From assembly GCA_949282305.1 (NCBI GenBank), contig CASDPB010000042.1, positions 1 through 33,511 of the forward strand: a DNA stretch of 33,511 nt, in the 5' to 3' direction. How positions within the stretch are numbered: position 1 is the stretch's first letter; every line of letters begins with the position of its first letter. Under the pieces are notes generated by a model. That model did not search any database. It saw only the letters and a program-made list of their open reading frames with translations, and was not told the DNA's origin. Position numbers and translations under genes: made by a program. The stretch is from an uncultured Lentisphaeria bacterium (GTDB lineage: Bacteria > Verrucomicrobiota > Lentisphaeria > Victivallales > UBA1829). Below, piece by piece: positions 4,332-32,596 of this stretch.

Positions 4332-5327
4332 ATGTCGGGAAGGAAATATAATATTGCGGCAATCGCGAAGCTGGCGGGAGTTTCACCGGCGACGGTATCG
4401 CGTGCGCTGAACAACCATCCTTATGTGACGAAAGAAGTTCATGATAAAGTGTTTGACGCGGTGCACCGCCTCGGCTACCAGCCTCGGATGCCGTCGGACA
4501 AGAAGCGTCTGGCGATCATTATCGACAGCCGGAACATGATCCTGAATTCCTATGCGAATACCATGCTGTTTCATCTGAGCCGTTTCTGCGACCGTCGTGA
4601 CATCCGCGCGGAAATTGTAGGGTATTCCAATCTGGAACTGCTGGAGGAGAATTTCCTGAAAGCCGCAATCGTTTTCCAGAATTTCCTGACGGAGCAGGAC
4701 GCACGGCAGTTTCCGCACACTCAGTTCATCTGCATCAATAAGCGGATTCCGGGGTATGCGTCTGTCTGTTCCGAGGAGGAGCAGGGGATTGCGACGGCGA
4801 TGCGCTATCTGGCGGAGCGCGGGCACCGGAGGATTGCACTTGTCCTGCCGAATGCGGGCGACAGCCGGAGCGTTCTTCTGAGGCGTGCCGCTTTCTGCAG
4901 GCTTTCGGCGGAAGCGGGGATTCCCGATGCGGAATCTCTGATCGCCTGTATCAATCAGAACCCCGTGGAGGCGGTTGCGCGTGTCATCCGGGCGCAGAAG
5001 CCGGATGCTTTGCTGATAGGGGGGGAGGACATGCTGTTTCCGACCAATTTCGCGGTGGAGATGCTGGGGCTGTCCGTGCCGGATGATCTTTCCGTAATCA
5101 GCTATGAAAACAGTTATGCGTCCGCCTACATGGTTCCGCCGCACACCACGATAGCGCAGGATTTTGCCCGGCTGGCGGAATTTGCGGTGAACCTGGCGCT
5201 GGATGCGCTGGACGGACACTCTGTTTCGGACAGGCATATTGAGGTGCCGAACAGTTTCATAGAGCGGGATTCCGTAAAGATGCGGATGAACAGTAAATCA
5301 ACATACAGCAGGAGCAATGGAGCATGA
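4332..5327 (+). CDS. LacI/GalR-family transcriptional regulator
   Basis: 331 aa, the usual family length. Residues 7-27 ([20 protein letters not shown]) form the LacI helix-turn-helix, followed by a hinge region to about residue 55 (VHRLGYQPR) and a periplasmic-binding-protein-like effector domain with features such as [18 protein letters not shown] and [13 protein letters not shown]. It should bind DNA as a dimer and respond to a sugar or sugar derivative. The start has GAGG four bases upstream. It is first in an apparent operon: its stop overlaps the ATG of the pseudopilin gene by ATGA, and the secreted hydrolase follows. The strong promoter and paired palindromes upstream suggest it represses its own cassette. 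The effector is unknown but is probably a product of the hydrolase. Confidence 0.92.
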
Positions 5328-6043
5328 AGCGCAGAGTTTGCAGGAGAAGGTTCGGAACGGGTTTATTCACAATAATAGAACTTCTGATTGTCATAGCAGT
5401 CATCGCCATACTGGCGGGAATGCTGCTGCCCGCGCTGAACCGGGCGCGTCTGAAGGCTTATGATGTCAAATGTCTCGGCAACCTGAAACAGCTGGGCATG
5501 GCGCACCTGAATTATGCGGAGGATTACAAGGGCGAGTTCTGCAAATCCATCATCAATGTGAACTATGCGTGGTTCGACAAGTCATTCAGTCCTTTCATGA
5601 CGAACCACTACATCCCGAAGAAGCTGAGGACGGAAAGCGGCAGTCTGCTGGACTGCAAACGGGTTCCATACACGGAGAATCCGGCGACCAACAATGAGAT
5701 GAACCGCAAATTGTGCGCCTATGCGCTGACACGCGATCTGGGAAACCTGAAGACTCTTCCGCATCCGGCAATCAAGGTCGTGGTCTGCGACGGGCAGGGA
5801 TACCGGGTGACTTATGAAAACTGGAACGGATACAACGGGACGCTCAACGGTGCGGTCTACCCGGCACACAACGGTGTCCCTTATATTGCGTTTGCGGACG
5901 GTCATGCCGGTTCTTTCAAAGGGATGAAACTGATTCCTTCGGGTTCACAATGTTCGCGCTACAGAGTATGTTTTTACGGCATTCGCGACAGCGTTGAGCA
6001 GGAGTGGTATCGTTATTTCATGAATCATGCAGATAAAAATTAA
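5324..6043 (+). CDS. Pseudopilin-like protein with prepilin N-terminus and H-X9-DG motif
   Basis: 239 aa. A basic leader ([14 protein letters not shown]) is followed by the prepilin segment [20 protein letters not shown], then LPALNRAR and [20 protein letters not shown], as in type II secretion/type IV pilin-like proteins. Near the C-terminus [15 protein letters not shown] is the H-X(n)-DG motif abundant in Planctomycetes and Lentisphaerota. The leader should be cut by a prepilin peptidase and the protein held in, or assembled at, the inner membrane. Its role is unknown; a secretion-filament tip or surface-display function is a guess. The ATG overlaps the regulator's stop by 4 bases, implying translational coupling, and the hydrolase gene starts 16 bases downstream. 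Confidence 0.9.
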
Positions 6044-6059
6044 AACAGAGGTGGTGAAA

Positions 6060-9000
6060 ATGAAGTTCTTGTCGGCGGGGGTGATGCTGGGCGGCTGCAT
6101 ATTCGGATGCCTGGCGCAGAATCTGATCCGCAACCCGGATTTCAACGGCGTGGAACCGTGGAGACTGACTGAATGGACCGGGAATTACGGCACTGTCAGC
6201 GCATCCGGGCGGAACATGATGATTGTGAACGATGATCCGAAGCAGACCACGATGGCGCAGCAGGGAGTGCATCTCAAACCGCACACGGAGTATCGTCTTT
6301 CGTTCCGGATCAAGGGGGAAAAAATCACGACGGACGGAGCCGGGAATTCCGGCGCCTGCGTTATGATCCTGCATAAGGGGAAACATGTCTATGAATGCAG
6401 CCCCGCGGGGGCATGGAAGACGGTTTCCGGCACGTTTGACTGGAAATCATGCGCCTTGACCTTCAAGACCGGAGAAATTACGGAACGCAGCGTTCTTTAT
6501 CTTGTCCTGCGCAAGAGCAGCGGGACGGTCCGTTTTTCAGATGTCCGGCTGGAGGAGACGGCAAAGGCTGTCACCGCGGGAGGAACGGCAAAGCTGATTC
6601 CCGTATGCTGGCAGAAGAACGTATGGAATCTCGCTGCTGGAACGCCCGGCTGCATTTTCTGCGATTTGCGCACGAAACCGGTGAAGACGTGCAGGTATGA
6701 GATCGAACTTGACCTGCCGGAAGGGGTTGAGCTTTCCGCCGCTTCCCCGTGGCACCGATATGCACCGGGCGTTTCTTCGGACCGCATTGTATCCCTGCCG
6801 TCCGGAAGGGGAGCTGCGTTCCGGACTTATCGCGTTGTGCTCGATCCGAAATTTGCAGCGGCGCTTCTGCCGGACTCCCTTGCATGGAGCAATTACTACC
6901 GTCTCTACCTGACCGCATCGGGAAAAACAGCCGGAGGCGGCGCATTTTTCCGTTTTTACGCAGACGGGAAGGAACTGATGCCGGAGCAGAGTTTCCAGAT
7001 CAATGTTCTGCCTCCTGTCGTGTTTCCGCAGGAAAAAATAAAAAAGTTCGGGCTTCACATTTCCCATCTTTACTGTCTGACGGCTCCTCTGCCTGGAATC
7101 CGGAATTCAGGATTGGACTACTGGCGGAATCTGGCGGAAAAGCCGGAAACTTTCACGGTTTTCAGATTCGGATCGTCAGACCCGGAAATCAGGGCGCAGG
7201 TATTGCGGGATTTCAAAGTCTCCCTGTTTGTCGGAACCCGTTATGTCACGCCTTTCGGAAACTTCTCCGACTGGAAGAAGCAGAGCGGAGTCCAGGTGCC
7301 GGAAATGGTGCTGGCGGACGGCAGACGGCTGGAATGGGCGTGTCCCTCCTATGCCGCGCGGAAGGGCACGCCTTTCTGGGAGAGTTATGTTTCGGAACTG
7401 ATTCAGAAGAAACTGGACGGACTGCCGCAGGCTGTCCGCATAGTCTGGGACATTGAGCCGGGCGCGAAAGATTATTGCTATTGCGCCGTGTGCCGGAAGA
7501 ATTTCTCCGATTCCGTTTCACCCGGGAAGACGCTGACGGCGGAGGAGATCCGCCGGAATCATGCGGCGGAGTGGTTTCGTTTCCGCGTGAAGCAGAATGC
7601 GGAGATCATCAGACGGTTTGCCGAACTCTGCCGCGGAAAGTTCCCCGGGAAGGAGCTGGTTCTGTGCACGGACCCGCTGCACGCTTCCCCGCCGCACGTT
7701 CAGGAATGGTGCGGTGTGGACGTCCGCCTGAGCGATGCGGATTACGGGCTGTTCATGAACATGCCGTATTATCAGGGCGTGCGCTGGTATGATGATCTAG
7801 CGTTCAATCTGAAATCCCTGAAGACGCCGAACTATCCGCTGATTGATCCCTCGGAAAATCTGGAGATGTTTTACAACCGCTACACACCGGAGGGCGTCGT
7901 GATGAACATGGTTGCCGCGGCGGCACAGGGTGCACGCGGCATCGGGTTCTGGCCCGGTGACAATTTTGACGGAAAGTATCTCCATGCGATTGCCGAAGGC
8001 TGCGGAATGATCGCGGACGGCGAGGAGTATTATTTCGGGGAGCGGTGCGACCGGATGGCGGAGGTCAAGCCGGAAAATGTGGTGAAAATGACACTGGAGG
8101 ACCGGGGGCGGAAAGCTGTGGCGACGGTTCCGGACTTTACACCGTATCTGCGCTTTACCGTTCATAAAAAGGATTCCGCCTGGCTGGTGACGGTTTTCAA
8201 TTACCATCCGTCCCAGGATCTTCTTGCGAGGATTGCGCTTCCCGGCATTCCGTGCTCCGGCGCCTGGCATGTATTCAGTCTGAAAGACCGCAGGGCTTAT
8301 TCGACGGCGAATCCGGCGGACGGTTTTCTCGCGGAAATTCCGGCGGGAACGGTTCGTCAGTTTGAGATTGCAAGGGAGAAAAGAAAAGCGGCGGGGCTCA
8401 TTGAACCGGCGGCTCTGGAGAAAAAACTTGCCGGTTTCCATGCAGGAAATTCCTCTGTTTCCCGTTTCCGGAGTCTCCGTGAAGGAAATCGTGCAGTCGG
8501 CTGGGGAATTCTGCCCGAGGGAAGCGGCCCGATGCTGAAGCTGTCTGCGGGAAGCCGTTCCGTTTATCTGGATCTGAACCGCAATGCGGCGATTGCGGGG
8601 TATTACATTGATGACTTGGAGGATATTCTTTCCGGCGAGGGAAGGGGAGTGATGGATGAACTCAACCTGTATCGCTTCCGGGATCCGCTGGCGTTTGAAC
8701 TGACGGATGCGAAAATAGAAAAGGGGATTCCGACGGTCCGGTTTGCCGCCGTTGTTCCCGCGGCGGAAAACGCCGATCCGAATTCAACCTTGCCCGCCGG
8801 ACTCCGAATCGAAAAGACCGTTTCGCTGGAGGATGACGGGAAAACGATTCGTTCCGTCTACACCTTGCTGAATCCGGAGGACAGCGGGCGCACAATGAAA
8901 GTCGGATTCCGCCTGAAGAATCATCCACGCCTCGGCGCCGCATGGAACAGCGGCAAAGTGCTCAGTTCACTTTGGAGGATAGGGATGAATGGAACTTCGG

Positions 9001-9314
9001 GCAAGATTTTGTTCCGGGGGGCGGAACGGGCTGACAATCTGATTCTTGCCGCCGGTGTGAATACGGCTCCCGGAGAGTTGACCGGAAAGATTCTGCCGGA
9101 ACGTTATGCCGGAGGCGCGGCGGAACTGTCCGCATCGTTCAACGGTCAGAACGCAGAAATCAGCTTTGAGCTTCTGCCGGACGCCGAATGCGCGGGATTC
9201 CTGATCTGGTGGAGCAGCAGTTCCGCATCCACGCTGGAGCCTCTGACCCGTGAGAAGATATTGAAGCCGGGAGAGAGCCGGACGATTGCGTCTTTGATCC
9301 GGCTCGGACAGTGA
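6060..9314 (+). CDS. Large secreted glycoside-hydrolase-like protein
   Basis: 1084 aa from the ATG at 6060, chosen because GAGGTGG lies just upstream and the protein then opens with a signal peptide (MKFLSAGVMLGGCIFGCLAQ). An in-frame ATG at 6027 lacks these features. LGGC at 10-13 could also act as a lipobox. Residues 21-170 (NLIRNPDFNGVEPWRL and on) resemble a CBM4/9-like jelly-roll. About 330-680 looks like a TIM barrel: FGLHISHLYCL, then IVWDIEPGA at 461-469 with a candidate catalytic Glu466, the Cys cluster DYCYCAVCRKNF at 471-482, and GIGFWPGDNF near 628. The remainder resembles beta-sandwich accessory domains. The C-X-C-X2-C-X3-F pattern recalls DUF4838-type glycoside hydrolases. Substrate unknown; likely a host or plant glycan. 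It is the third gene of the LacI cassette and is probably induced by its own product. Confidence 0.75.
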   Translation: MKFLSAGVMLGGCIFGCLAQNLIRNPDFNGVEPWRLTEWTGNYGTVSASGRNMMIVNDDPKQTTMAQQGVHLKPHTEYRLSFRIKGEKITTDGAGNSGACVMILHKGKHVYECSPAGAWKTVSGTFDWKSCALTFKTGEITERSVLYLVLRKSSGTVRFSDVRLEETAKAVTAGGTAKLIPVCWQKNVWNLAAGTPGCIFCDLRTKPVKTCRYEIELDLPEGVELSAASPWHRYAPGVSSDRIVSLPSGRGAAFRTYRVVLDPKFAAALLPDSLAWSNYYRLYLTASGKTAGGGAFFRFYADGKELMPEQSFQINVLPPVVFPQEKIKKFGLHISHLYCLTAPLPGIRNSGLDYWRNLAEKPETFTVFRFGSSDPEIRAQVLRDFKVSLFVGTRYVTPFGNFSDWKKQSGVQVPEMVLADGRRLEWACPSYAARKGTPFWESYVSELIQKKLDGLPQAVRIVWDIEPGAKDYCYCAVCRKNFSDSVSPGKTLTAEEIRRNHAAEWFRFRVKQNAEIIRRFAELCRGKFPGKELVLCTDPLHASPPHVQEWCGVDVRLSDADYGLFMNMPYYQGVRWYDDLAFNLKSLKTPNYPLIDPSENLEMFYNRYTPEGVVMNMVAAAAQGARGIGFWPGDNFDGKYLHAIAEGCGMIADGEEYYFGERCDRMAEVKPENVVKMTLEDRGRKAVATVPDFTPYLRFTVHKKDSAWLVTVFNYHPSQDLLARIALPGIPCSGAWHVFSLKDRRAYSTANPADGFLAEIPAGTVRQFEIAREKRKAAGLIEPAALEKKLAGFHAGNSSVSRFRSLREGNRAVGWGILPEGSGPMLKLSAGSRSVYLDLNRNAAIAGYYIDDLEDILSGEGRGVMDELNLYRFRDPLAFELTDAKIEKGIPTVRFAAVVPAAENADPNSTLPAGLRIEKTVSLEDDGKTIRSVYTLLNPEDSGRTMKVGFRLKNHPRLGAAWNSGKVLSSLWRIGMNGTSGKILFRGAERADNLILAAGVNTAPGELTGKILPERYAGGAAELSASFNGQNAEISFELLPDAECAGFLIWWSSSSASTLEPLTREKILKPGESRTIASLIRLGQ

Positions 9315-9343
9315 ACTGCCGCAGACGGGCTGGAAAAGCAGTC

Positions 9344-10702
9344 CTATTCCGTTCTTCCGCGAAGGGCGAAGAACCAGAGCAGGAGCCAGAAAATGACTCC
9401 TGCCATGCTGATGATCCAGAACAGCAGCCCCCCTTTTGCCATGACAAGCGGCAGAGCAAGGGATGTGACGACGCCACCGCCCATAAACGGTTCATGGAAG
9501 AGCTGTTTGTAGCCGAATGCGGATGCCGCGCAGGTCTTGTTTTCCGGATCGACGGTGCGCAGGAGAAGAAGCCCCGTTGCGGTGACGCCCATCGCCTGAC
9601 CGAATTCCGCGATTGCGCGCTCGAACCATGCGACTTTGAAAAGTCTCGGCGCGGCATAGAGCACCATGAATACGTTCCACAGCGTGCCGAACAGAATCAG
9701 CAGGAGCAGCGGGAGCCAGTAGGCTGCGACAAAGTCGATGCGGATCGACGCCACGGCGGAGAGCACCAGAAAGTCCAGCGCCGCTCCGGCGAGTCTCTGC
9801 ATCTGCCCGTGATCCACGATGATATGCAGTTTTGTGATGCGCAGCAGCATCTGAAGAAGGAGTCCGCCGATCATACAGAGCGGAAACAGCGGGAAGCTCG
9901 GCAGGATGCGCATGTCGCGGATTCCCGCGGGCGCCACGGTATCCAGCAGGAGCAGCAGTTCCTTGAATCCGCAGCCGATCAGCACCGCAATGCCGATCAG
10001 GGCGATATGCAGCGCAAGGGAATCGACGGAGTCGGAGAAGACGGTCTGCTTTCCGGCAGGCGGCTGCTCCTCCGGCGGATAGACGCCGCGCTGTTCCAGC
10101 TTCGACTGATCTTCAAAACTGCGGATGTTGGTGATGTGCCCGTGCCTTGCCGCCCAGTTGATGAGCCACATGCCGATGACGATGCCGAGGATCATTCCGG
10201 CGGTCGCCATGGCGAAGCCGAGATCCTTGCCGGTTTCCCAGTCCAGATGCTCGAAGGTTTCGGTCAGCCCCGCCACGGTGCCGTGCCCGCCCTCGAATCC
10301 GATTTCCAGAAGATTGCCGAACTGGATCGGGACTCCGAACAGCGGCAGAAGAACCAGTCCGGTCAGCCCGAGCCCGACCGCATACTGCCCCCACGCGATG
10401 ATCTGTCCGAAACAGAGCTGGGGCGCGGTGATGTTCCAGATGCCGCGCAGTTTTGGGGTCGGCGCTCCGAGAAAAAGCGAGGCGAACACGATGTTGATCA
10501 GGAAGCCGGGGAGTGCATCCCAGCCCGCGAACCAGTTCGGGGAGAGATGCGGACCCGCCGTGTTGATGAGGAGCAGTCCCAGCATTCCGCCGATCACCGA
10601 GGCGGGAAGATAGAGCTTCTGGAACAGCGGAATCAGGCTCCTCAGTATTTTACCGGATACCAGCAGCAGACAAAGTCCGCAGAACGACATGACAACAACC
10701 AT
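9344..10702 (-). CDS. Sodium/glutamate symporter family protein (GltS-like)
   Basis: 452 aa membrane protein with about 11-12 hydrophobic segments. GFEGGHGTVAGL near residue 120 is the hallmark first re-entrant-loop motif of the GltS family, and FGQAMGVTATGLLLLRTVDP near 365 matches the second, symmetry-related half. Family members carry glutamate in with Na+; this one is longer than E. coli GltS (about 400 aa), with a charged loop near 175-205, so the substrate may differ. The start ATG has GGGAG about 9 bases upstream, and an in-frame stop just before rules out extension. It begins 35 bases after the GH36 gene on the same strand, so the two are probably co-transcribed. The convergent hydrolase gene ends 29 bases away. 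Confidence 0.87.
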   Translation of the reverse strand: MVVVMSFCGLCLLLVSGKILRSLIPLFQKLYLPASVIGGMLGLLLINTAGPHLSPNWFAGWDALPGFLINIVFASLFLGAPTPKLRGIWNITAPQLCFGQIIAWGQYAVGLGLTGLVLLPLFGVPIQFGNLLEIGFEGGHGTVAGLTETFEHLDWETGKDLGFAMATAGMILGIVIGMWLINWAARHGHITNIRSFEDQSKLEQRGVYPPEEQPPAGKQTVFSDSVDSLALHIALIGIAVLIGCGFKELLLLLDTVAPAGIRDMRILPSFPLFPLCMIGGLLLQMLLRITKLHIIVDHGQMQRLAGAALDFLVLSAVASIRIDFVAAYWLPLLLLILFGTLWNVFMVLYAAPRLFKVAWFERAIAEFGQAMGVTATGLLLLRTVDPENKTCAASAFGYKQLFHEPFMGGGVVTSLALPLVMAKGGLLFWIISMAGVIFWLLLWFFALRGRTE

Positions 10703-10737
10703 TGTTACTTACTCCCGGTCACTCAGCTTTCCTGATT

Positions 10738-26088: not shown

Positions 26089-26892
26089 ATGGAGAAAAGA
26101 AATTTTACGTTGCTGGAAATGCTGATGGTCGCGGCTGTCATCGCGATTCTTGCGGGACTTCTTTTCCCCGCACTGGCGTCCGCGCGCGCCAGAGGCGGAA
26201 AGACAGCCTGCATGAATCTGCTGAAGCAATACTCCCTCGCATCTTCGGCGTATGTGACCGATTACGGCGGATATTACCCCGACGTGCGGCATTATCTGGA
26301 GCCGGAGAGCGCGTTTGTCCGCTATTTCGGCAGCGGCGATGTGATGCCGGAAAAGATCGCCCGCTGTCCCGGAGACGCCGCCACTGAAGCGCTGCGCAGG
26401 GTGCCGCGCTGGAGAACTGCGGATCATGTCGGCTTCAAGGTCAGCATCGGCGGCTCCGCCTCCAATCTTTCCGATACGCAGATGCCGAGTTCCGAAGGAA
26501 TTGTCAGCGCATGGCGGCGCGCCGATCTGCCGTATATGGAGAAATATCCGGTTTCCAAGCGCGCCCTGTGGCTGGATTATCAGGCGGAGGAAGCGGTGTC
26601 CGATTCGGATTTCATGGAGTCGCCGCCGATGCTTGCCGGAGCCAGGACCGGGTATTCCACGATGAGCAATTTTGTTTTCCGGCATCCCGGAGGCACATCG
26701 AACATCGCCTATATGGACGGTCATGTCGGCGATATGCGCATTCTTGTGAAAACGGTTGACAACGGGCACCGTTTTGCCGGCTCCGTCAGCAACTTTGCCA
26801 ATTTCATGCATTATCCGTTCGGACCGCGTCCGGATAATGTCGCCGCGGGGCGCGGCACGGTCGCCGAATCCCCGCATGTATCGTATCATTAA
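26089..26892 (+). CDS. Pseudopilin-like protein with prepilin N-terminus and H-X8-DG motif
   Basis: 267 aa from the ATG at 26089, which has GGAG 9 bases upstream and yields the compact prepilin start MEKRNFTLLEMLMVAAVIAI; an ATG at 26056 would add 11 residues with no better site. After the membrane helix (ILAGLLFPALASARAR) come MNLLKQYSLASSAYVTDYGG and a variable middle, then HPGGTSNIAYMDGHVG, the H-X(n)-DG motif. It should be cut after the short leader and anchored in the inner membrane. Here the gene is first in a run with an ABC ATPase (11 bases downstream) and its permease. That pairing hints at a shared export or envelope role, which is inference. Confidence 0.88.
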   Translation: MEKRNFTLLEMLMVAAVIAILAGLLFPALASARARGGKTACMNLLKQYSLASSAYVTDYGGYYPDVRHYLEPESAFVRYFGSGDVMPEKIARCPGDAATEALRRVPRWRTADHVGFKVSIGGSASNLSDTQMPSSEGIVSAWRRADLPYMEKYPVSKRALWLDYQAEEAVSDSDFMESPPMLAGARTGYSTMSNFVFRHPGGTSNIAYMDGHVGDMRILVKTVDNGHRFAGSVSNFANFMHYPFGPRPDNVAAGRGTVAESPHVSYH

Positions 26893-26903
26893 GGAGAACC
26901 GAC

Positions 26904-27638
26904 ATGCTGAATCTGCCGCTTAAGATGGATCAGGTGATGAAAAGCTACTCCGGGAGAAGCGTGCTGCGCTCTCTTTCCCTTTGCGTGGAGCAGGGGGATT
27001 TCCTGGCTGTCATGGGGCCGAGCGGTTCGGGGAAAAGCACGCTTCTTCATGCCGCCGCCGGCTTGATCTCTGTTGACGCCGGCAGGATTGCCGTGGATGG
27101 GATTTTCCTGGATACTCTGGGGGATTCCGCGTTGAGTGAACTGCGCAGAAAAAAGATCGGGCTCGTGTTTCAGGCGTTCAACCTGATCCCGAACCTGACT
27201 GTCGGCGAGAACATCATGCTGCCGCTTCTTGCCGGAAGTTTTCAGCCGGACATAGCGCGTTACCGCACTCTGGCGGAACGGCTCGGCATCGCGGACAAGC
27301 TGGACCGTTTTCCATTGACGCTGAGCGGCGGGGAGCAGCAGCGCGCGGCGATCATGCGGGCTCTGCTGCCGGAACCGGCGCTGATCCTCGCCGATGAACC
27401 GACGGGAAGCCTGGATTCCGCGGCGGGAAGCGAACTGTGCGGACTCCTCAGGGAGCTCTGCCGGGAAAAAACGCACACAATCATCATGGTGACTCATGAA
27501 CCGTCGGTTGCGCTTGCCGCAAAGCATGTGCTGGTGCTGAAAGACGGTGTTTTTGCCGGAGAGATCGCGGATACGGCGGGGCTGACGGTGGACGCTCTTT
27601 CCGCAGAGTATCACCGGATACTGGAGAGCGCGGAATGA
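26904..27638 (+). CDS. ABC transporter ATP-binding protein (MacB/LolD-like)
   Basis: 244 aa. Walker [10 protein letters not shown] near residue 38, Q-loop in [18 protein letters not shown], signature [15 protein letters not shown], Walker [13 protein letters not shown] and switch histidine in MVTHEP. The sequence around the Q-loop is typical of the LolD/MacB/FtsE subfamily, which uses ATP to move lipoproteins, peptides or periplasmic substrates by mechanotransmission. AAGGAG precedes the ATG. Its TGA overlaps the permease ATG by ATGA, so ATPase and permease are translated together. Confidence 0.94.
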
Positions 27639-30328
27639 AAACCGCATTGCTCCTGGCTTTTCTGCGTCTGTGCCGTGCGCCGCTGCGTTCCTGTCTTGTG
27701 CTCCTGACAATCATCGTGACGGTCTGCATCGCGCTCTGGTTTGCCGCCGCCTACGACACTCTGATGGCGAATGCGGATCGTGACGCCGCCGTCATGACGG
27801 GCGATGCCGATCTGCTGCTTTTTCCACGCAGGACTGTCGTCAGCCGTCTGGACGAGGAGTTTCTTGCGGCGTTGAAGCGGGATTCCGCGGTCGGGTCTCT
27901 TGCCGTGTTTGCTCCCGTGGATGTGAATCTTGCGGGGAGGAAAGGCGGAGAGACTCCTCCGCCGATGTATGGACTGCCTCGCCGAACCCCTTCGCTGGTC
28001 GGGACGGACGCCGCGGAGCCGCCGCTTGAAATGACTGCCGGGCGGTGGCTTTCCGGGAAGCCCGGCGAGGCTGTCGCGGATGCGCAGACCGCAGCCCGGA
28101 ACCGCTGGAAACCGGGGTCTGTGATCCGGGTGCGTTCCTCCGCCGGGTTCTTCCAGTTCAGACTGGTCGGGATTATCGCCGAAAATCCTGCGGGAAAACG
28201 TTTTGCGACGATCTCGGATTCGGATGTCCTGCGTCCTCCTCCGTCGCGCGCGATCTATGCGGCGCTTGAAGATGCGCGGAGGTGCGCCGGCGGAAAACTC
28301 GATATCGCCTATGCTTCCCTGCGGCTGAACGTATCGCCTGAACTTTGGAAGGAACGTCTGAACATTGCGCATGTCCTGTGCTTTTCAAGGGAGGACATCC
28401 GTCGCGCCCTGCATGACGGCGCAAGCGCGGACAACGCCCGTATGCAGGTTTTCTCCGCGGGAAGCGTCAGTCTGCTGGTCGCTTTTTTCATCATATTTTC
28501 GGTTCTGAACATGGAAGTGGACGAACAGCGCAGACATTTTGCGATGCTCCGCATGGCGGGTTTTACGCGGAGACAGCTTTTCCTGATCCTGTTTTTCGAG
28601 GCTCTTTACTTTGCGCTTTCCTGTTGGATTTGCGGTCTTGGCGCGGGTGCGGCGCTGCTGAAACTTCTGGATCTTCCGCTTCATCTCGGATTCTGGAGCA
28701 TTGCGGTGAGCGGGATTTTCTCCTGCATCGCAACCCTCGGGGCGGCTCTGTTTCCCGCTTTGCGCGCGGCAGCCGTCATGCCGATGGATGCTTTTGTAAA
28801 GCAGGCTCCCGCGATGCCCGGAAAAACGTCCTGTCTCCTGTTCTGCGTCGGGGTGTTGCTTCTTCCGGTGAATCCGCTGATCGTGTTTCTGCCTGCGATC
28901 CCGGAGAATCTGCGGATTTTCCTGTACGGATTCCTCGGGTGTCCTGTTCAAGTTGCGGCATTCCTGCTGATGACGCCGCTGCTTCTCCGGGGGGTGGAAT
29001 GGTGTCTGCGCGGAATTTTCGCCTCTTTGTTCCGTCTGAATCCGCTTTTTTTCCGTTCGCAGCTGGATGCCGGCTTCCGTCGGGGCGCACTGTTGACAGC
29101 CGCTCTTTCCGCCGGACTCGGCTTCTATATGATGGTCGTGATCTGGAGCGCATCGCTTCTGCTGCCGTTCCTGCCGGGGACGTGGATGCCGGATCTGTTT
29201 GCCGTGATTGTCCCCGGCGGACTGAAAATCAGCGATGCGGCGATGGTGGAGAAGTTTTCCGGCGTGGAGAAGGCGCTTCCTGTTGCGGTCGAGCAGGTGA
29301 AGCTAGCCGGGGATTTGACCGGAAGCCGGAAACGGAAGAATGTGGTAAGGCAGGACAACGTTGTTTTCATGGGGCTGGATGTTGCCGCCGCGTATGAGGG
29401 GAAGGAGGCTCTCCTGCCGTTTGTCTATCTGGAGCCGGACGGGGAACGCGCGCTGAAACTGTTGAAAACTGGAGGGAATTACTGTCTGATTCCGGAACAT
29501 TTCGCGCTTGTGACCGGACTGCGAAGCGGCGATTCCTTCGATGTGATTCCGCCGGATGCGCCGGAGAAGCGTCTCCGCTATACTGTGGCGGGGGTGATTG
29601 AGTTCAAAGGCTGGCACTGGTTCTCCAAGATGTCCGGCACGCGCCGCCATGAATCGCGAACCGCCGCGATGCTGTTCGGCAGTTATGAAAATATTGCACG
29701 CAATTTCAATTTGGACCGCGTGAATTTCATCTGGATGAATCTGAACGGAAAGGCGTCGGAAAAGGAGCTGCGCAGGGAGCTTTATGCGCTTGCCGCACAG
29801 AATCGCGGTGAAAAATACCATATTGCCGGTGGGGGCGGAGGGGAGATTTCACAGGAATACGTCAAACTGGTGTCGCGCGATTTCCTGAAACATTCGATTC
29901 TGAGCCGGACGGAACAGGTTGTCAACGGGATGCTGAATCTGCCGCTGGTGATTTTGTGTGCGACGACGCTTGCCGTGGCTTCCGCGGCATTCGGCGCGGT
30001 TCACGCGCGGCGATGCGAACTCCGGGTCATGCGCATGGTCGGATTGTCCGCTTTCGGGGCTGTCCGGCTGGTGCTTGCGGAATTTCTGCTGATCGGGATG
30101 GCAGCATCGGCTGTGAGTCTGCTGTTCGGGATTTTTTCCGGCATATGCAGTGCGCAGATGGCTTCGAGTCTGAGCTTTTTCGGCGGCATGGGGTGGAACT
30201 TCTCGATTCCGTGGGGGCGGGTCATGACGGGCTGTCTGACTGCGCTCGGTGTCTGTTTCGCCGGAACCCTGATTCCCGCTCTGCTTCAGGTGAGGCGGAA
30301 ATTCTTTGACTGCGGTAATGAGGAATGA
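27635..30328 (+). CDS. FtsX-like ABC transporter permease, two-module form
   Basis: 897 aa. Hydrophobic segment near residues 16-40 (VLLTIIVTVCIALWFAAAY), a soluble extracytoplasmic domain to about 280, three helices near 283-385, several more helices near 395-515, a second soluble domain to about 770, and three closing helices, the last including CLTALGVCFAGTLIPALLQV. This is the duplicated FtsX layout (about 10 helices) of long permeases such as YbbP-like and some Lol-like exporters. The first helix bundle carries the coupling-type stretch FAMLRMAGFTRRQLFLIL, mirrored by LRVMRMVGLSAFGAVRLVL in the second. It would be powered by the upstream ATPase. The substrate is unknown; proximity to the pseudopilin is the only clue. 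Confidence 0.87.
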   Translation: MKTALLLAFLRLCRAPLRSCLVLLTIIVTVCIALWFAAAYDTLMANADRDAAVMTGDADLLLFPRRTVVSRLDEEFLAALKRDSAVGSLAVFAPVDVNLAGRKGGETPPPMYGLPRRTPSLVGTDAAEPPLEMTAGRWLSGKPGEAVADAQTAARNRWKPGSVIRVRSSAGFFQFRLVGIIAENPAGKRFATISDSDVLRPPPSRAIYAALEDARRCAGGKLDIAYASLRLNVSPELWKERLNIAHVLCFSREDIRRALHDGASADNARMQVFSAGSVSLLVAFFIIFSVLNMEVDEQRRHFAMLRMAGFTRRQLFLILFFEALYFALSCWICGLGAGAALLKLLDLPLHLGFWSIAVSGIFSCIATLGAALFPALRAAAVMPMDAFVKQAPAMPGKTSCLLFCVGVLLLPVNPLIVFLPAIPENLRIFLYGFLGCPVQVAAFLLMTPLLLRGVEWCLRGIFASLFRLNPLFFRSQLDAGFRRGALLTAALSAGLGFYMMVVIWSASLLLPFLPGTWMPDLFAVIVPGGLKISDAAMVEKFSGVEKALPVAVEQVKLAGDLTGSRKRKNVVRQDNVVFMGLDVAAAYEGKEALLPFVYLEPDGERALKLLKTGGNYCLIPEHFALVTGLRSGDSFDVIPPDAPEKRLRYTVAGVIEFKGWHWFSKMSGTRRHESRTAAMLFGSYENIARNFNLDRVNFIWMNLNGKASEKELRRELYALAAQNRGEKYHIAGGGGGEISQEYVKLVSRDFLKHSILSRTEQVVNGMLNLPLVILCATTLAVASAAFGAVHARRCELRVMRMVGLSAFGAVRLVLAEFLLIGMAASAVSLLFGIFSGICSAQMASSLSFFGGMGWNFSIPWGRVMTGCLTALGVCFAGTLIPALLQVRRKFFDCGNEE

Positions 30329-30390
30329 GAAATGTCCTTTTTATCGGACGGTGTGATAAACGGGGATTTATATTATAATGAGGAAATATG

Positions 30391-30951
30391 ATGTTAGGAT
30401 TGAAAAGAGGAACGGTAAAATTGGTCTCTCATCAGGAAGAATGGAGTGGAGAAGCTGAAAATATGATCCGTTTGCTGAGACGGCTTTTGGGTAATATTCC
30501 GATTGATATTCAGCACATCGGAAGCACTGCCATTTTTTCGATCCACGCAAAACCGATTATTGATATTGCCGTTGCCGTACATAACTTGAATGATATCCTG
30601 CCTTATATTGAAGTGCTGAAACGGCATAATATTGTTTTCCGGGGAGAAATGGTCGCTGGAGAAATATTGTTTGCAGTGGGCAATGATGAGATGCGGACCC
30701 ATCATATTCACATTGTTAAATGGAATGGTGCGGAATGGAACAATTATATTAATTTTCGGGATTACTTGAATGCGCATCCGGAAAAGGCAGCTTTATATGA
30801 TATTTGCAAACAGAAACTGGCAATGCAGTTTCCCAATGACAGAAAAAGTTATACCGCGGGCAAGGAGGAGATGATACTGCATTTGCTGTCTGAAGCCGGA
30901 ATTTGGAGGGCGGCAGCTCAACTTCCTGATGAATCGCGGCAAAAACATTGA
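30391..30951 (+). CDS. GrpB/UPF0157 family protein
   Basis: 186 aa from the ATG at 30391, preferred over 30388 because the GAGGAA site then has normal spacing. IDIQHIGSTAIFSIHAKPIIDIAV near residue 45 is the GrpB signature (GST/S and the D-X-D-like IIDIAV, as in nucleotidyltransferases), followed by HHIHIVKWNGAEWNNYINFRDYL, which matches the family's HLHV...W...L.FRDYL pattern. GrpB proteins belong to the nucleotidyltransferase superfamily and are often on mobile or accessory DNA; the reaction is uncertain. The gene is visibly more AT-rich than its neighbours, suggesting transfer. Confidence 0.88.
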   Translation: MLGLKRGTVKLVSHQEEWSGEAENMIRLLRRLLGNIPIDIQHIGSTAIFSIHAKPIIDIAVAVHNLNDILPYIEVLKRHNIVFRGEMVAGEILFAVGNDEMRTHHIHIVKWNGAEWNNYINFRDYLNAHPEKAALYDICKQKLAMQFPNDRKSYTAGKEEMILHLLSEAGIWRAAAQLPDESRQKH

Positions 30952-31007: not shown

Positions 31008-32108
31008 ATGATGAAAAAACTGTTGTTGTGTCTGGCTCTGGGATTTGCCGCCGTTTGTTCTGCGGAGGATTCGGCGTTTCGGAAAGGCGCCGCTTATCTG
31101 CTCACCCGGCAGGGACAGGACGGTTCATGGGGACGGCATCCCGCAATTACGGGGTTGGTCTGCATGGCGCTGAACGGCATTCATGAGGAAGCCGTGGAAA
31201 AGGGGCGCGCCTATCTGCTGAAGCATGTCCAGAAGGACGGTTCGATCTGGCTTGCGGGGCGTCGCCGGGAATATCCGACTTACACGACGGCAATCGCGCT
31301 GGCGGCGCTGGCGGTGATGAACCGCAGGGAGGATGAAGCCGTCATGCGCAACGCCCGCAAGTGGCTCCTGACTTTACAGAACAGCGATCCGGAATCCCAG
31401 AATTACGGCGGGTTCGGCTACGGTCCCGATCCGCGCGGCGCGGCGCATGTCGATCTTTCCAATACCCAGTGGGTTGCCGAGGCGCTTTACCTGACGGAAC
31501 ATCTGGATCGCGAACCGGAGGCGAAGTCGTCCGGAGATACGGAGAAAGCCGATCTTGCATGGGAGAAGCTCGACCGTTTCCTGAGCAGGGTTCAGCATCT
31601 GCCGGAAACAAACAAAGAGACATGGGTCGTTTCCGACCGGAACGATCCGAACTACGGCGGCTTCATCTACAGACTGGACGAGAATGCGTCGCATGATATG
31701 AAGACGGGACTTCCGCAGACACTCCGTTCCTATGGCAGCATGACCTATGCCGGACTCAAAAGCATGATTTATGCAAGGGTAGGGAAAGACGATCCGCGCG
31801 TAAAGGCCGCGGCTGCATGGGCGGCAAAGCATTATACCGTCGATGAAAATCCCGGAGTCGGCGCGAACGGACTGTTCTATTATCTCCAGACCTTTGCCAA
31901 GGCGAATTCCGCGCTCGGAGAGGATGCTGTCGTGACTCCCGACGGGAAAAAACATGACTGGCGCGCCGATCTGAAAAGAAAATTATCCTCATCACAGCGG
32001 CGGGACGGCAGCTGGATCAATGAAAAATCCGGGCGCTGGATGGAGTCCATGCCCGAACTCGTGACCGCTTATGCGCTTCTTGCGCTGAGGGTTGCGGAAC
32101 AGCAGTGA
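31008..32108 (+). CDS. Secreted prenyltransferase/squalene-oxidase-repeat protein
   Basis: 366 aa from the ATG at 31008, which follows GGAGG at good spacing and starts a clear signal peptide (MMKKLLLCLALGFAAVCSA, cut before EDS). The mature part repeats units with QDGSWG, QKDGSIW, NYGGFGYGP, NYGGFIYRL and QRRDGSWIN, the pattern of alpha/alpha-toroid proteins related to squalene-hopene cyclases and prenyltransferase beta subunits. No DXDD cyclase motif is seen, so a terpene cyclase role is unlikely; such exported proteins are common in Planctomycetes and Lentisphaerota, with unknown function. Its stop overlaps a GTG codon of the next gene's frame, but that gene's better start is 23 bases on. 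Confidence 0.82.
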   Translation: MMKKLLLCLALGFAAVCSAEDSAFRKGAAYLLTRQGQDGSWGRHPAITGLVCMALNGIHEEAVEKGRAYLLKHVQKDGSIWLAGRRREYPTYTTAIALAALAVMNRREDEAVMRNARKWLLTLQNSDPESQNYGGFGYGPDPRGAAHVDLSNTQWVAEALYLTEHLDREPEAKSSGDTEKADLAWEKLDRFLSRVQHLPETNKETWVVSDRNDPNYGGFIYRLDENASHDMKTGLPQTLRSYGSMTYAGLKSMIYARVGKDDPRVKAAAAWAAKHYTVDENPGVGANGLFYYLQTFAKANSALGEDAVVTPDGKKHDWRADLKRKLSSSQRRDGSWINEKSGRWMESMPELVTAYALLALRVAEQQ

Positions 32109-32131
32109 AAATTTTGAGAAAGGAGCTTGAA

Positions 32132-32596
32132 ATGGCGATTGAAAAAGTCAGGGAATATTTGAAACAATTCGGTGCGGATGGGCGCATCCGGGAACTTGCG
32201 GAGTCCAGTGCGACTGTTGAACTCGCGGCACAGGCTCTGCACTGTGAACCGCGGAGAATTGCGAAAACATTGTCGTTTCATCTGGATGACCGCGTGATCC
32301 TGATCGTAGCGGCGGGCGATGCCAGAATTGACAACAAAAAATACAAGGAACAGTTCGGCAGGAAGGCGAAGATGCTTGCCGGAGAGGAAGCGGAACCGCT
32401 GACGGGACATGCCGTGGGAGGTGTCTGTCCTTTTGCGGTGAAGGAAGGTGTTTCAATTTATCTGGATGTATCCCTGAAACGCTTTGAGACCGTATTTCCG
32501 GCGTGCGGCAGTGCGAACAGTGCCATTGAATTGAGTCTGGATGAGCTTGAGCGGTTTTCCGGTTCATCCCAGTGGATTGATGTCTGCAAACTGTAA
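32132..32596 (+). CDS. YbaK/EbsC-family aminoacyl-tRNA deacylase
   Basis: 154 aa from the ATG at 32132, preceded by AAAGGAG at 6 bases; the open frame reaches 32105 with GTG but lacks that site. The family core is present: RRIAKTLSFHLDDRVILIV with the conserved Lys44, DNKKYKEQFG, and GHAVGGVCPFAVKEGVSIYLD, the last holding the G-X-C-P-F loop that shapes the substrate pocket. These proteins hydrolyse mischarged tRNA, most often Cys-tRNA(Pro). The gene follows the repeat-protein gene closely and is probably on the same transcript. Confidence 0.92.
   Translation: MAIEKVREYLKQFGADGRIRELAESSATVELAAQALHCEPRRIAKTLSFHLDDRVILIVAAGDARIDNKKYKEQFGRKAKMLAGEEAEPLTGHAVGGVCPFAVKEGVSIYLDVSLKRFETVFPACGSANSAIELSLDELERFSGSSQWIDVCKL

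Follow-up and report, generated by a model that had tools for sequence, protein, structure and literature searches.

Known Type VII ATP-binding cassette (ABC) systems act with periplasmic partners, as described in PMC12646458 for the Escherichia coli permease YbbP, which has ten membrane helices and two ectodomains, one between helices 1 and 2 and the other between helices 7 and 8, is the product of a duplication, and binds two copies of YbbA with TesA carried on top. In Planctopirus limnophila, DUF1559 and related pilin-like proteins form the most numerous set of paralogues, with 68 copies, two of them essential, described in PMC10632474 as of unknown function. Both kinds of protein meet in a stretch of 33,511 nucleotides from an uncultured Lentisphaeria bacterium (assembly GCA_949282305.1, contig CASDPB010000042.1; hereafter the window), where a pseudopilin gene precedes those of an ABC ATPase and an FtsX-type permease with the predicted topology and fold of YbbP. 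The components are already known and their pairing, a pilin with a Type VII ABC machine, appears new; in open-licence PubMed Central (PMC) papers no link was found between DUF1559 proteins or pseudopilins and a Type VII or FtsX ABC system. The pilin belongs to a dedicated clade that is linked to the permease gene and co-occurs with it also where the two genes lie apart, and the two proteins are very probably functionally linked.

As the original prediction described, the three genes form a single run, with 11 bases between pilin and ATPase and a permease start that overlaps the ATPase stop by ATGA. A fourth gene, absent from that prediction, encodes a secreted alpha-toroid, so-called cyc. The features comprise (aa, amino acids):

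26089..26892, + strand: dedicated pseudopilin, 267 aa; ATG 26089, TAA 26890-26892; prepilin N-terminus FTLLE and Lentisphaeria-family globular part
26683..26721, + strand: H-X10-DG stretch, pilin residues 199-211, counterpart of the H-X9-DG motif (TIGR04294 below cut-off)
26893-26903: pilin-ABC spacer, 11 bases, containing the ribosome-binding-like GGAG
26904..27638, + strand: ABC ATPase, 244 aa, LolD/FtsE/MacB-type; ATG 26904, TGA 27636-27638; catalytic motifs intact
27635..30328, + strand: FtsX-type permease, 897 aa, predicted ten-helix, YbbP-like pseudo-dimer; ATG 27635, stop 30326-30328
27800..28420, + strand: periplasmic ectodomain 1 of the permease, residues 56-262 (AlphaFold2 model), with matches to the MacB-like periplasmic domain
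29171..29875, + strand: periplasmic ectodomain 2 of the permease, residues 513-747 (AlphaFold2 model), with matches to the LolC/LolE periplasmic domain
29609..29647, + strand: conserved periplasmic motif GWHWFSKMSGTRR in ectodomain 2, residues 659-671
31008..32108, + strand: secreted alpha-toroid (cyc), squalene-cyclase-like with QW-type repeats, the frequent fourth gene of the module

Linkage and co-occurrence of pilin and permease

Because pilin genes are so numerous, with at least 122 N_methyl matches in the 4.36 Mb draft genome of the window and 27 to 118 DUF1559 matches in each of eight other genomes, one pilin beside one ABC pair means little alone. The survey of relatives relies on (i) a permease query against 100 near relatives, of which 40 match at a loose threshold, with near full-length matches in six genomes including that of the window; (ii) a profile built from these six permeases, matching 61 of 387 sampled Verrucomicrobiota genomes at E <= 1e-30; and (iii) a motif-based search that yielded 37 named loci in Lentisphaerota and Planctomycetota, leaning to the pilin-linked clade since its permease motifs derive from a mostly pilin-linked seed alignment, whereas the genome-sample sets used the profile. 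Class labels of genomes (numbered G) were inferred from named loci (numbered L) with the same coordinates, e.g. G155 = L076 Oligosphaera, and many genomes are draft bins, where contamination and gaps may create or conceal linkage. The gene sets were located in the named strains Blastopirellula marina DSM 3645 and Oligosphaera ethanolica DSM 24202.

Pilin, ATPase, permease and cyc occur together in G003, G063, G044 and G001, the last being of the same genus as the window bacterium; G007 has ATPase, permease and cyc with no such pilin nearby. The most conserved protein is cyc (53-80% identity to the window protein), against 33-70% for the permease and 32-74% for the pilin. An all-against-all comparison of the open frames of 58 loci, with spurious overlapping frames set aside and families counted at 11 or more loci, recovers the permease in 56, the ATPase in 54, the pilin in 30, cyc in 24 and a family of ~720 aa in 11. 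Many Planctomycetota show the recurrent order cyc-pilin-ABC-permease, and Victivallales the order pilin-ABC-permease-cyc; the triplet recurs in both Lentisphaerota and Planctomycetota, where the original prediction had proposed to look for its conservation.

Altogether 85 permease instances were collected, 71 of them informative (pilin or receptor found, or ATPase with at least 1.7 kb upstream) and 14 excluded owing to contig ends or an unrecognised ATPase gene. The gene directly upstream of the ATPase on the same strand is a pilin in 28 of the 71, a TonB-dependent receptor in 11 and neither in 32; in a binomial sketch that takes 2-3.3% of genes as pilins and ignores relatedness, P < 1e-22 for 28/71. 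Between the pilin stop and the first aligned ATPase codon the median distance is ~80 bases, and two of the 28 (L080 and L089) contain an extra small gene in between. Dedicated-clade members account for 26 of the adjacent pilins. The other two stand at L184, which has a dedicated pilin ~2 kb further upstream, and at L098, where two pilin starts precede the ATPase, both below the dedicated-clade threshold, and no dedicated pilin occurs in the stretch examined.

A strict operon rule was rejected, given the 32 'neither' instances, the pilins unlinked in six Lentisphaeria genomes and those lying kilobases away or on the opposite strand in several Planctomycetota. At least one dedicated pilin lies within the available stretch at 35 of 74 loci, 'neither' loci often having one a few kilobases off or on the opposite strand; no gene recognisable as recurrent was found by eye around the unlinked dedicated pilins.

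The tree of 28 module pilins, computed from the region after about residue 45, includes 39 of 40 controls (20 from the window genome, of which the truncated L200 was dropped, and 20 from four planctomycete genomes). All ten Lentisphaeria module pilins fall into one clade with a long stem (Shimodaira-Hasegawa-like approximate likelihood ratio test, SH-aLRT, 99), and 16 of the 18 Planctomycetota module pilins into a separate clade (SH-aLRT 98) together with one control, L224, the unlinked pilin of G410, a genome in which no pilin adjoins the ABC-permease locus (L102). Profiles discriminate the clades, although most members had served to build them: 383-515 bits for Planctomycetota members against at most 186 for other controls, and 277-335 bits for Lentisphaeria members against at most 21 for controls. 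The window pilin is the sole match to the dedicated-pilin profile in its genome (E 4e-95).

When the pilin C-terminal profile was run over the same 387 Verrucomicrobiota genomes (E <= 1e-20), a dedicated pilin was found in 15, all of which have the permease; conversely, 15 of the 16 permease genomes of the window's class have the pilin, which is missing from all 18 genomes of the window's own family listed without permease. The pilin lies on another contig or at a distance in six genomes (G007, G151, G155, G234, G295 and G312; lower scores of 128-133 bits in G155, G234 and G312), and hitch-hiking therefore does not explain the co-occurrence. In Planctomycetota the permease profile matches 17 of 392 sampled genomes at E <= 1e-60, and among 40 genomes tested for the pilin at E <= 1e-75 it is present in 17 of the 22 with the permease and in none of the 18 without it (Fisher P 3e-7, relatedness ignored), five of the 22 stemming from the motif-based search and all being pilin-positive, so that the profile sample alone gives 12/17. 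The two clades thus occur almost exclusively beside the permease or in genomes having it, which supports the proposed specificity of the pilin for the pump.

The window pilin shows profile matches to solved pilins and passes the NCBIfam prepilin-type model TIGR02532 marginally (16.4 bits, cut-off 16.3), scoring below cut-off for Pfam N_methyl (12.8 vs 21.2 bits), DUF1559 (PF07596; 13 vs 23.3 bits) and the H-X9-DG model TIGR04294 (12.7 vs 19 bits). The three Planctomycetota module pilins scanned, from Pirellulales, are DUF1559 proteins above cut-off that also carry N_methyl. With three Peptidase_A24 (prepilin peptidase) matches over cut-off and ten T2SSF (assembly-platform) domain matches, the window genome is plausibly able to process prepilins; it also contains five FtsX-domain matches spread over four genes. 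Of the 122 prepilin matches listed for this genome, 104 do not start until the Phe that follows the cleavage site (profile position 7), and a Gly at -1 is present in only 5 of 20 sampled pilins; the usual Gly at this position seems relaxed.

Several observations concern individual pilins and loci. The pilin described here is the second of the window, as first counted, the other prepilin N-terminus being at 5366-5533; that first pilin (5324-6043) is followed by proteins of 1095 and 474 aa, both without Pfam match at 1e-5, in a tight run behind a LacI-type regulator (window 5324-10735). A protein of 207-216 aa with one likely membrane helix lies between pilin and ATPase only at two loci, both from one other bacterial family: L039:1388-2011, where the copy has no Pfam match, and L040:1323-1973. 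The pilin at L040:424-1275 (= L089) has no in-frame prepilin N-terminus, whether through genuine loss or through misassembly of a repeated stretch. In Blastopirellula marina, the permease at L108:10001-14517 is broken by ~1.5 kb near profile position 720; the second locus of this organism, L184, comprises tandem pairs and shows no such break.

Architecture of the permease and the proteins encoded beside it

The AlphaFold2 model of the permease, built on an alignment of 31 sequences (window and motif-found loci), comprises ten membrane helices and two ectodomains, located between helices 1-2 and 7-8, with a predicted local distance difference test score (pLDDT) of 83.7 and a predicted template modelling score (pTM) of 0.78. 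The model is closest in fold to E. coli YbbP (9ge6; Foldseek E 1.4e-20, TM 0.57/0.63), with Z 20.9 and a root-mean-square deviation of 5.9 over 705 aligned residues, followed by MacB, LolC/E, BceB and a heme exporter; the structurally aligned sequences are 12-14% identical. The permease carries two FtsX domains (E 2.6e-20). In the ATPase, which matches ABC_tran (E 2.5e-31), Walker A and Walker B, the sequence LSGGEQQR and the H-loop can all be read. As modelled, the pair is a YbbAP-type member of the Type VII ABC systems.

The original prediction had regarded the pair as a MacB-like exporter, an identity that was rejected on the arrangement of the genes, the number of helices and the fold: ATPase and permease are encoded separately, the permease has ten predicted helices with two ectodomains and YbbP as closest fold, and the MacB model PRK10535 scores 161.7 of the 966 bits needed on the window ATPase. 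No MacA- or TolC-like neighbour recurs in the 58 loci, unlinked copies not being searched. The NCBIfam lolCE model TIGR02212 likewise scores 18.9 bits on the permease against a cut-off of 362, which, together with the ten helices, places it outside LolCDE.

The ectodomain 2 motif GWHWFSKMSGTRR recurs with variation in relatives, where GWHWxTK is a common form, and becomes faint in the permeases that diverge most; GWHW conservation was checked on profile-found relatives (45 rows plus the window), the earlier alignment being biased by loci partly picked by motif. At a guess from its place in the sequence, the motif may lie near the Hook position of LolC. At L039:2812-5928 and L038:8651-11575, ectodomain 1 displays Gly/Pro-rich inserts of tens of residues that are absent in the window protein.

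The alpha-toroid matches the 1gsz/2sqc profile (E 6e-22). DxDD is the catalytic motif of squalene-hopene cyclase; in all six aligned rows the DxDDT cyclase site is replaced, by profile alignment, by DLSNT, and canonical cyclase activity is therefore not expected. The protein might be a binding protein.

In Verrucomicrobiota outside Lentisphaeria the place of the pilin is often taken by the ~720-aa family (11 instances), a TonB-dependent receptor according to its Plug domain (7/7 tested). Receptor loci include L112:5069-7174, L117:5637-7805, L118:5759-7918, L121, L130, L116 and L123. Because this receptor adjoins the ATPase gene, the arrangement suggests that the ABC machine works with an envelope-level partner differing by lineage, although the receptor's job need not match that of the pilin.

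Two further genes of the window flank the alpha-toroid:

30388-30951: GrpB-family gene in the permease-toroid interval
32105-32596: YbaK-type gene, 3' of the alpha-toroid

The GrpB gene is missing from the corresponding gap of the two nearest relatives (L036 and L037), where the toroid lies within ~0.2 kb, and is likely a local insertion.

The possible role of the pseudopilin

The preferred reading, given somewhat less than an even chance, is that the pseudopilin is a physical, dedicated and membrane-tethered partner of a YbbAP-like mechanotransmitter. By analogy with Type VII systems, two ATPase copies would dimerise beneath one ten-helix permease, ATP binding would clamp the helix bundle, and the motion would pass to the two ectodomains, with work done in the periplasm. 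The pseudopilin would replace TesA, LolA or EnvC as the dedicated periplasmic partner: made as a prepilin, it would be anchored by the N-terminal helix to the inner membrane and would dock on the ectodomains through its globular head. As a third component, the alpha-toroid would be soluble and might carry hydrophobic material. The complex of pilin and permease, its docking, the part played by the toroid and the transported material are inferred at this point.

Several results weigh against this reading. The AlphaFold2 model of the window pilin is unusable (pLDDT 38). Mapping the pilin label onto the permease tree takes 15 changes, where shuffling gives 23.9 and not one of 500 shuffles is as low; pilin linkage is clustered, yet it has been lost or gained repeatedly. 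G293, an 88%-complete draft of ~850 contigs, is the permease genome of the window's class without dedicated pilin, and 5 of the 22 permease-positive Planctomycetota also lack one, three of them (G493, G612 and G634) having the most divergent permeases. The Lentisphaeria-type pilin is found in 0 of 45 permease genomes of Verrucomicrobiota outside the window's class; ABC pairs mostly devoid of pilin, the pattern named beforehand as contrary to the original prediction, thus prevail there, whereas Lentisphaerota and Planctomycetota do not follow it. Finally, the alpha-toroid occurs in 172 of the 387 Verrucomicrobiota genomes, including all 16 permease class-mates, and its tie to the module is weaker because most of these genomes lack this permease.

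Pilins are held in the inner membrane by a single helix, and their extraction is normally performed by the pilus platform. The main rival builds on this anchor and considers the pilin as cargo, which the ABC complex would extract from the inner membrane, as LolCDE does with lipoproteins, and hand on for the outer membrane or surface, perhaps to the alpha-toroid. The resemblance of the ectodomains to LolC/LolE, the relationship of the toroid family to lipid-binding cyclases and the presence of one or few dedicated pilins per permease genome, as fits a private cargo, all speak for this rather unlikely alternative; however, the window genome has platform genes of its own, at least 122 pilin-like genes face one permease of this family, which excludes a general extractor, and relatives pair the machine with a TonB-dependent receptor, not a membrane-anchored cargo of such kind. 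The idea of the original prediction, read here as a short filament or a piston by which cargo is presented or pushed, with the ABC pump powering or loading it, now appears improbable: the prepilin motif, the peptidase and platform genes in the genome and the dextran-binding pili-like fibres described for Planctomycetes in PMC5394234 are compatible with it, but no motor, platform or secretin gene recurred among the 58 neighbourhoods compared, and the pilin itself gave the poor structure prediction mentioned above.

Slightly less probable still is a common regulation or pathway without contact, the pilin serving another apparatus. The separation of pilin and permease in six Lentisphaeria genomes and the often unlinked toroid would agree with such an arrangement, although the joint retention of unlinked genes and the nearly exclusive co-occurrence seen in both phyla point to a closer tie. 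Mere chance, for which the abundance of pilin genes in the window genome and the eight others could be invoked, is ruled out by the 28/71 adjacency, the two dedicated clades and the co-occurrence.

Comparison with known systems

The association of two dedicated pilin clades with one ABC machine, alike in two phyla, suggests a testable role for some DUF1559-type proteins, providing a first functional handle on this huge pilin-like family and a new partner class for Type VII ABC systems. A broader and doubtful extension is a swappable-partner machine of Planctomycetes-Verrucomicrobia-Lentisphaerae, in which a YbbP-type mechanotransmitter would drive an envelope-spanning partner, namely a dedicated pseudopilin together with a lipid-carrying toroid in Planctomycetota and Lentisphaeria, or a TonB-dependent receptor of the outer membrane in the remaining Verrucomicrobiota. 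If true, it would represent an ATP-driven pilin outside pilus motors and the first function for DUF1559-type proteins. Compared to the DUF1559/H-X9-DG pseudopilins of Planctomycetes, the window pilin shares their build but scores under the DUF1559 cut-off, and the module pilins form dedicated clades.

The squalene-hopene cyclase family and the alpha-toroid share QW-type repeats, but the window protein is short, secreted and limited to a single toroid without DxDD. MacAB-TolC is also a Type VII ABC system with the same fold of the periplasmic domain, but MacB is a fused ATPase-permease chain with four helices, whereas the window encodes separate proteins and a permease of ten predicted helices. 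LolCDE-LolA has in common the Type VII ABC nature, the FtsX domains and the LolC/E-like ectodomains; it differs in its two four-helix permeases, its lipoprotein cargo and its partner LolA. Closest is YbbAP-TesA, with a separate ATPase gene, one ten-helix permease, the same placement of the ectodomains and the best fold match. No hydrolase appears among the recurrent neighbours of the 58 loci, the whole genome not being searched for TesA. The partner in YbbAP-TesA is the hydrolase TesA, whereas the conserved neighbour here is a pseudopilin, accompanied by the alpha-toroid.

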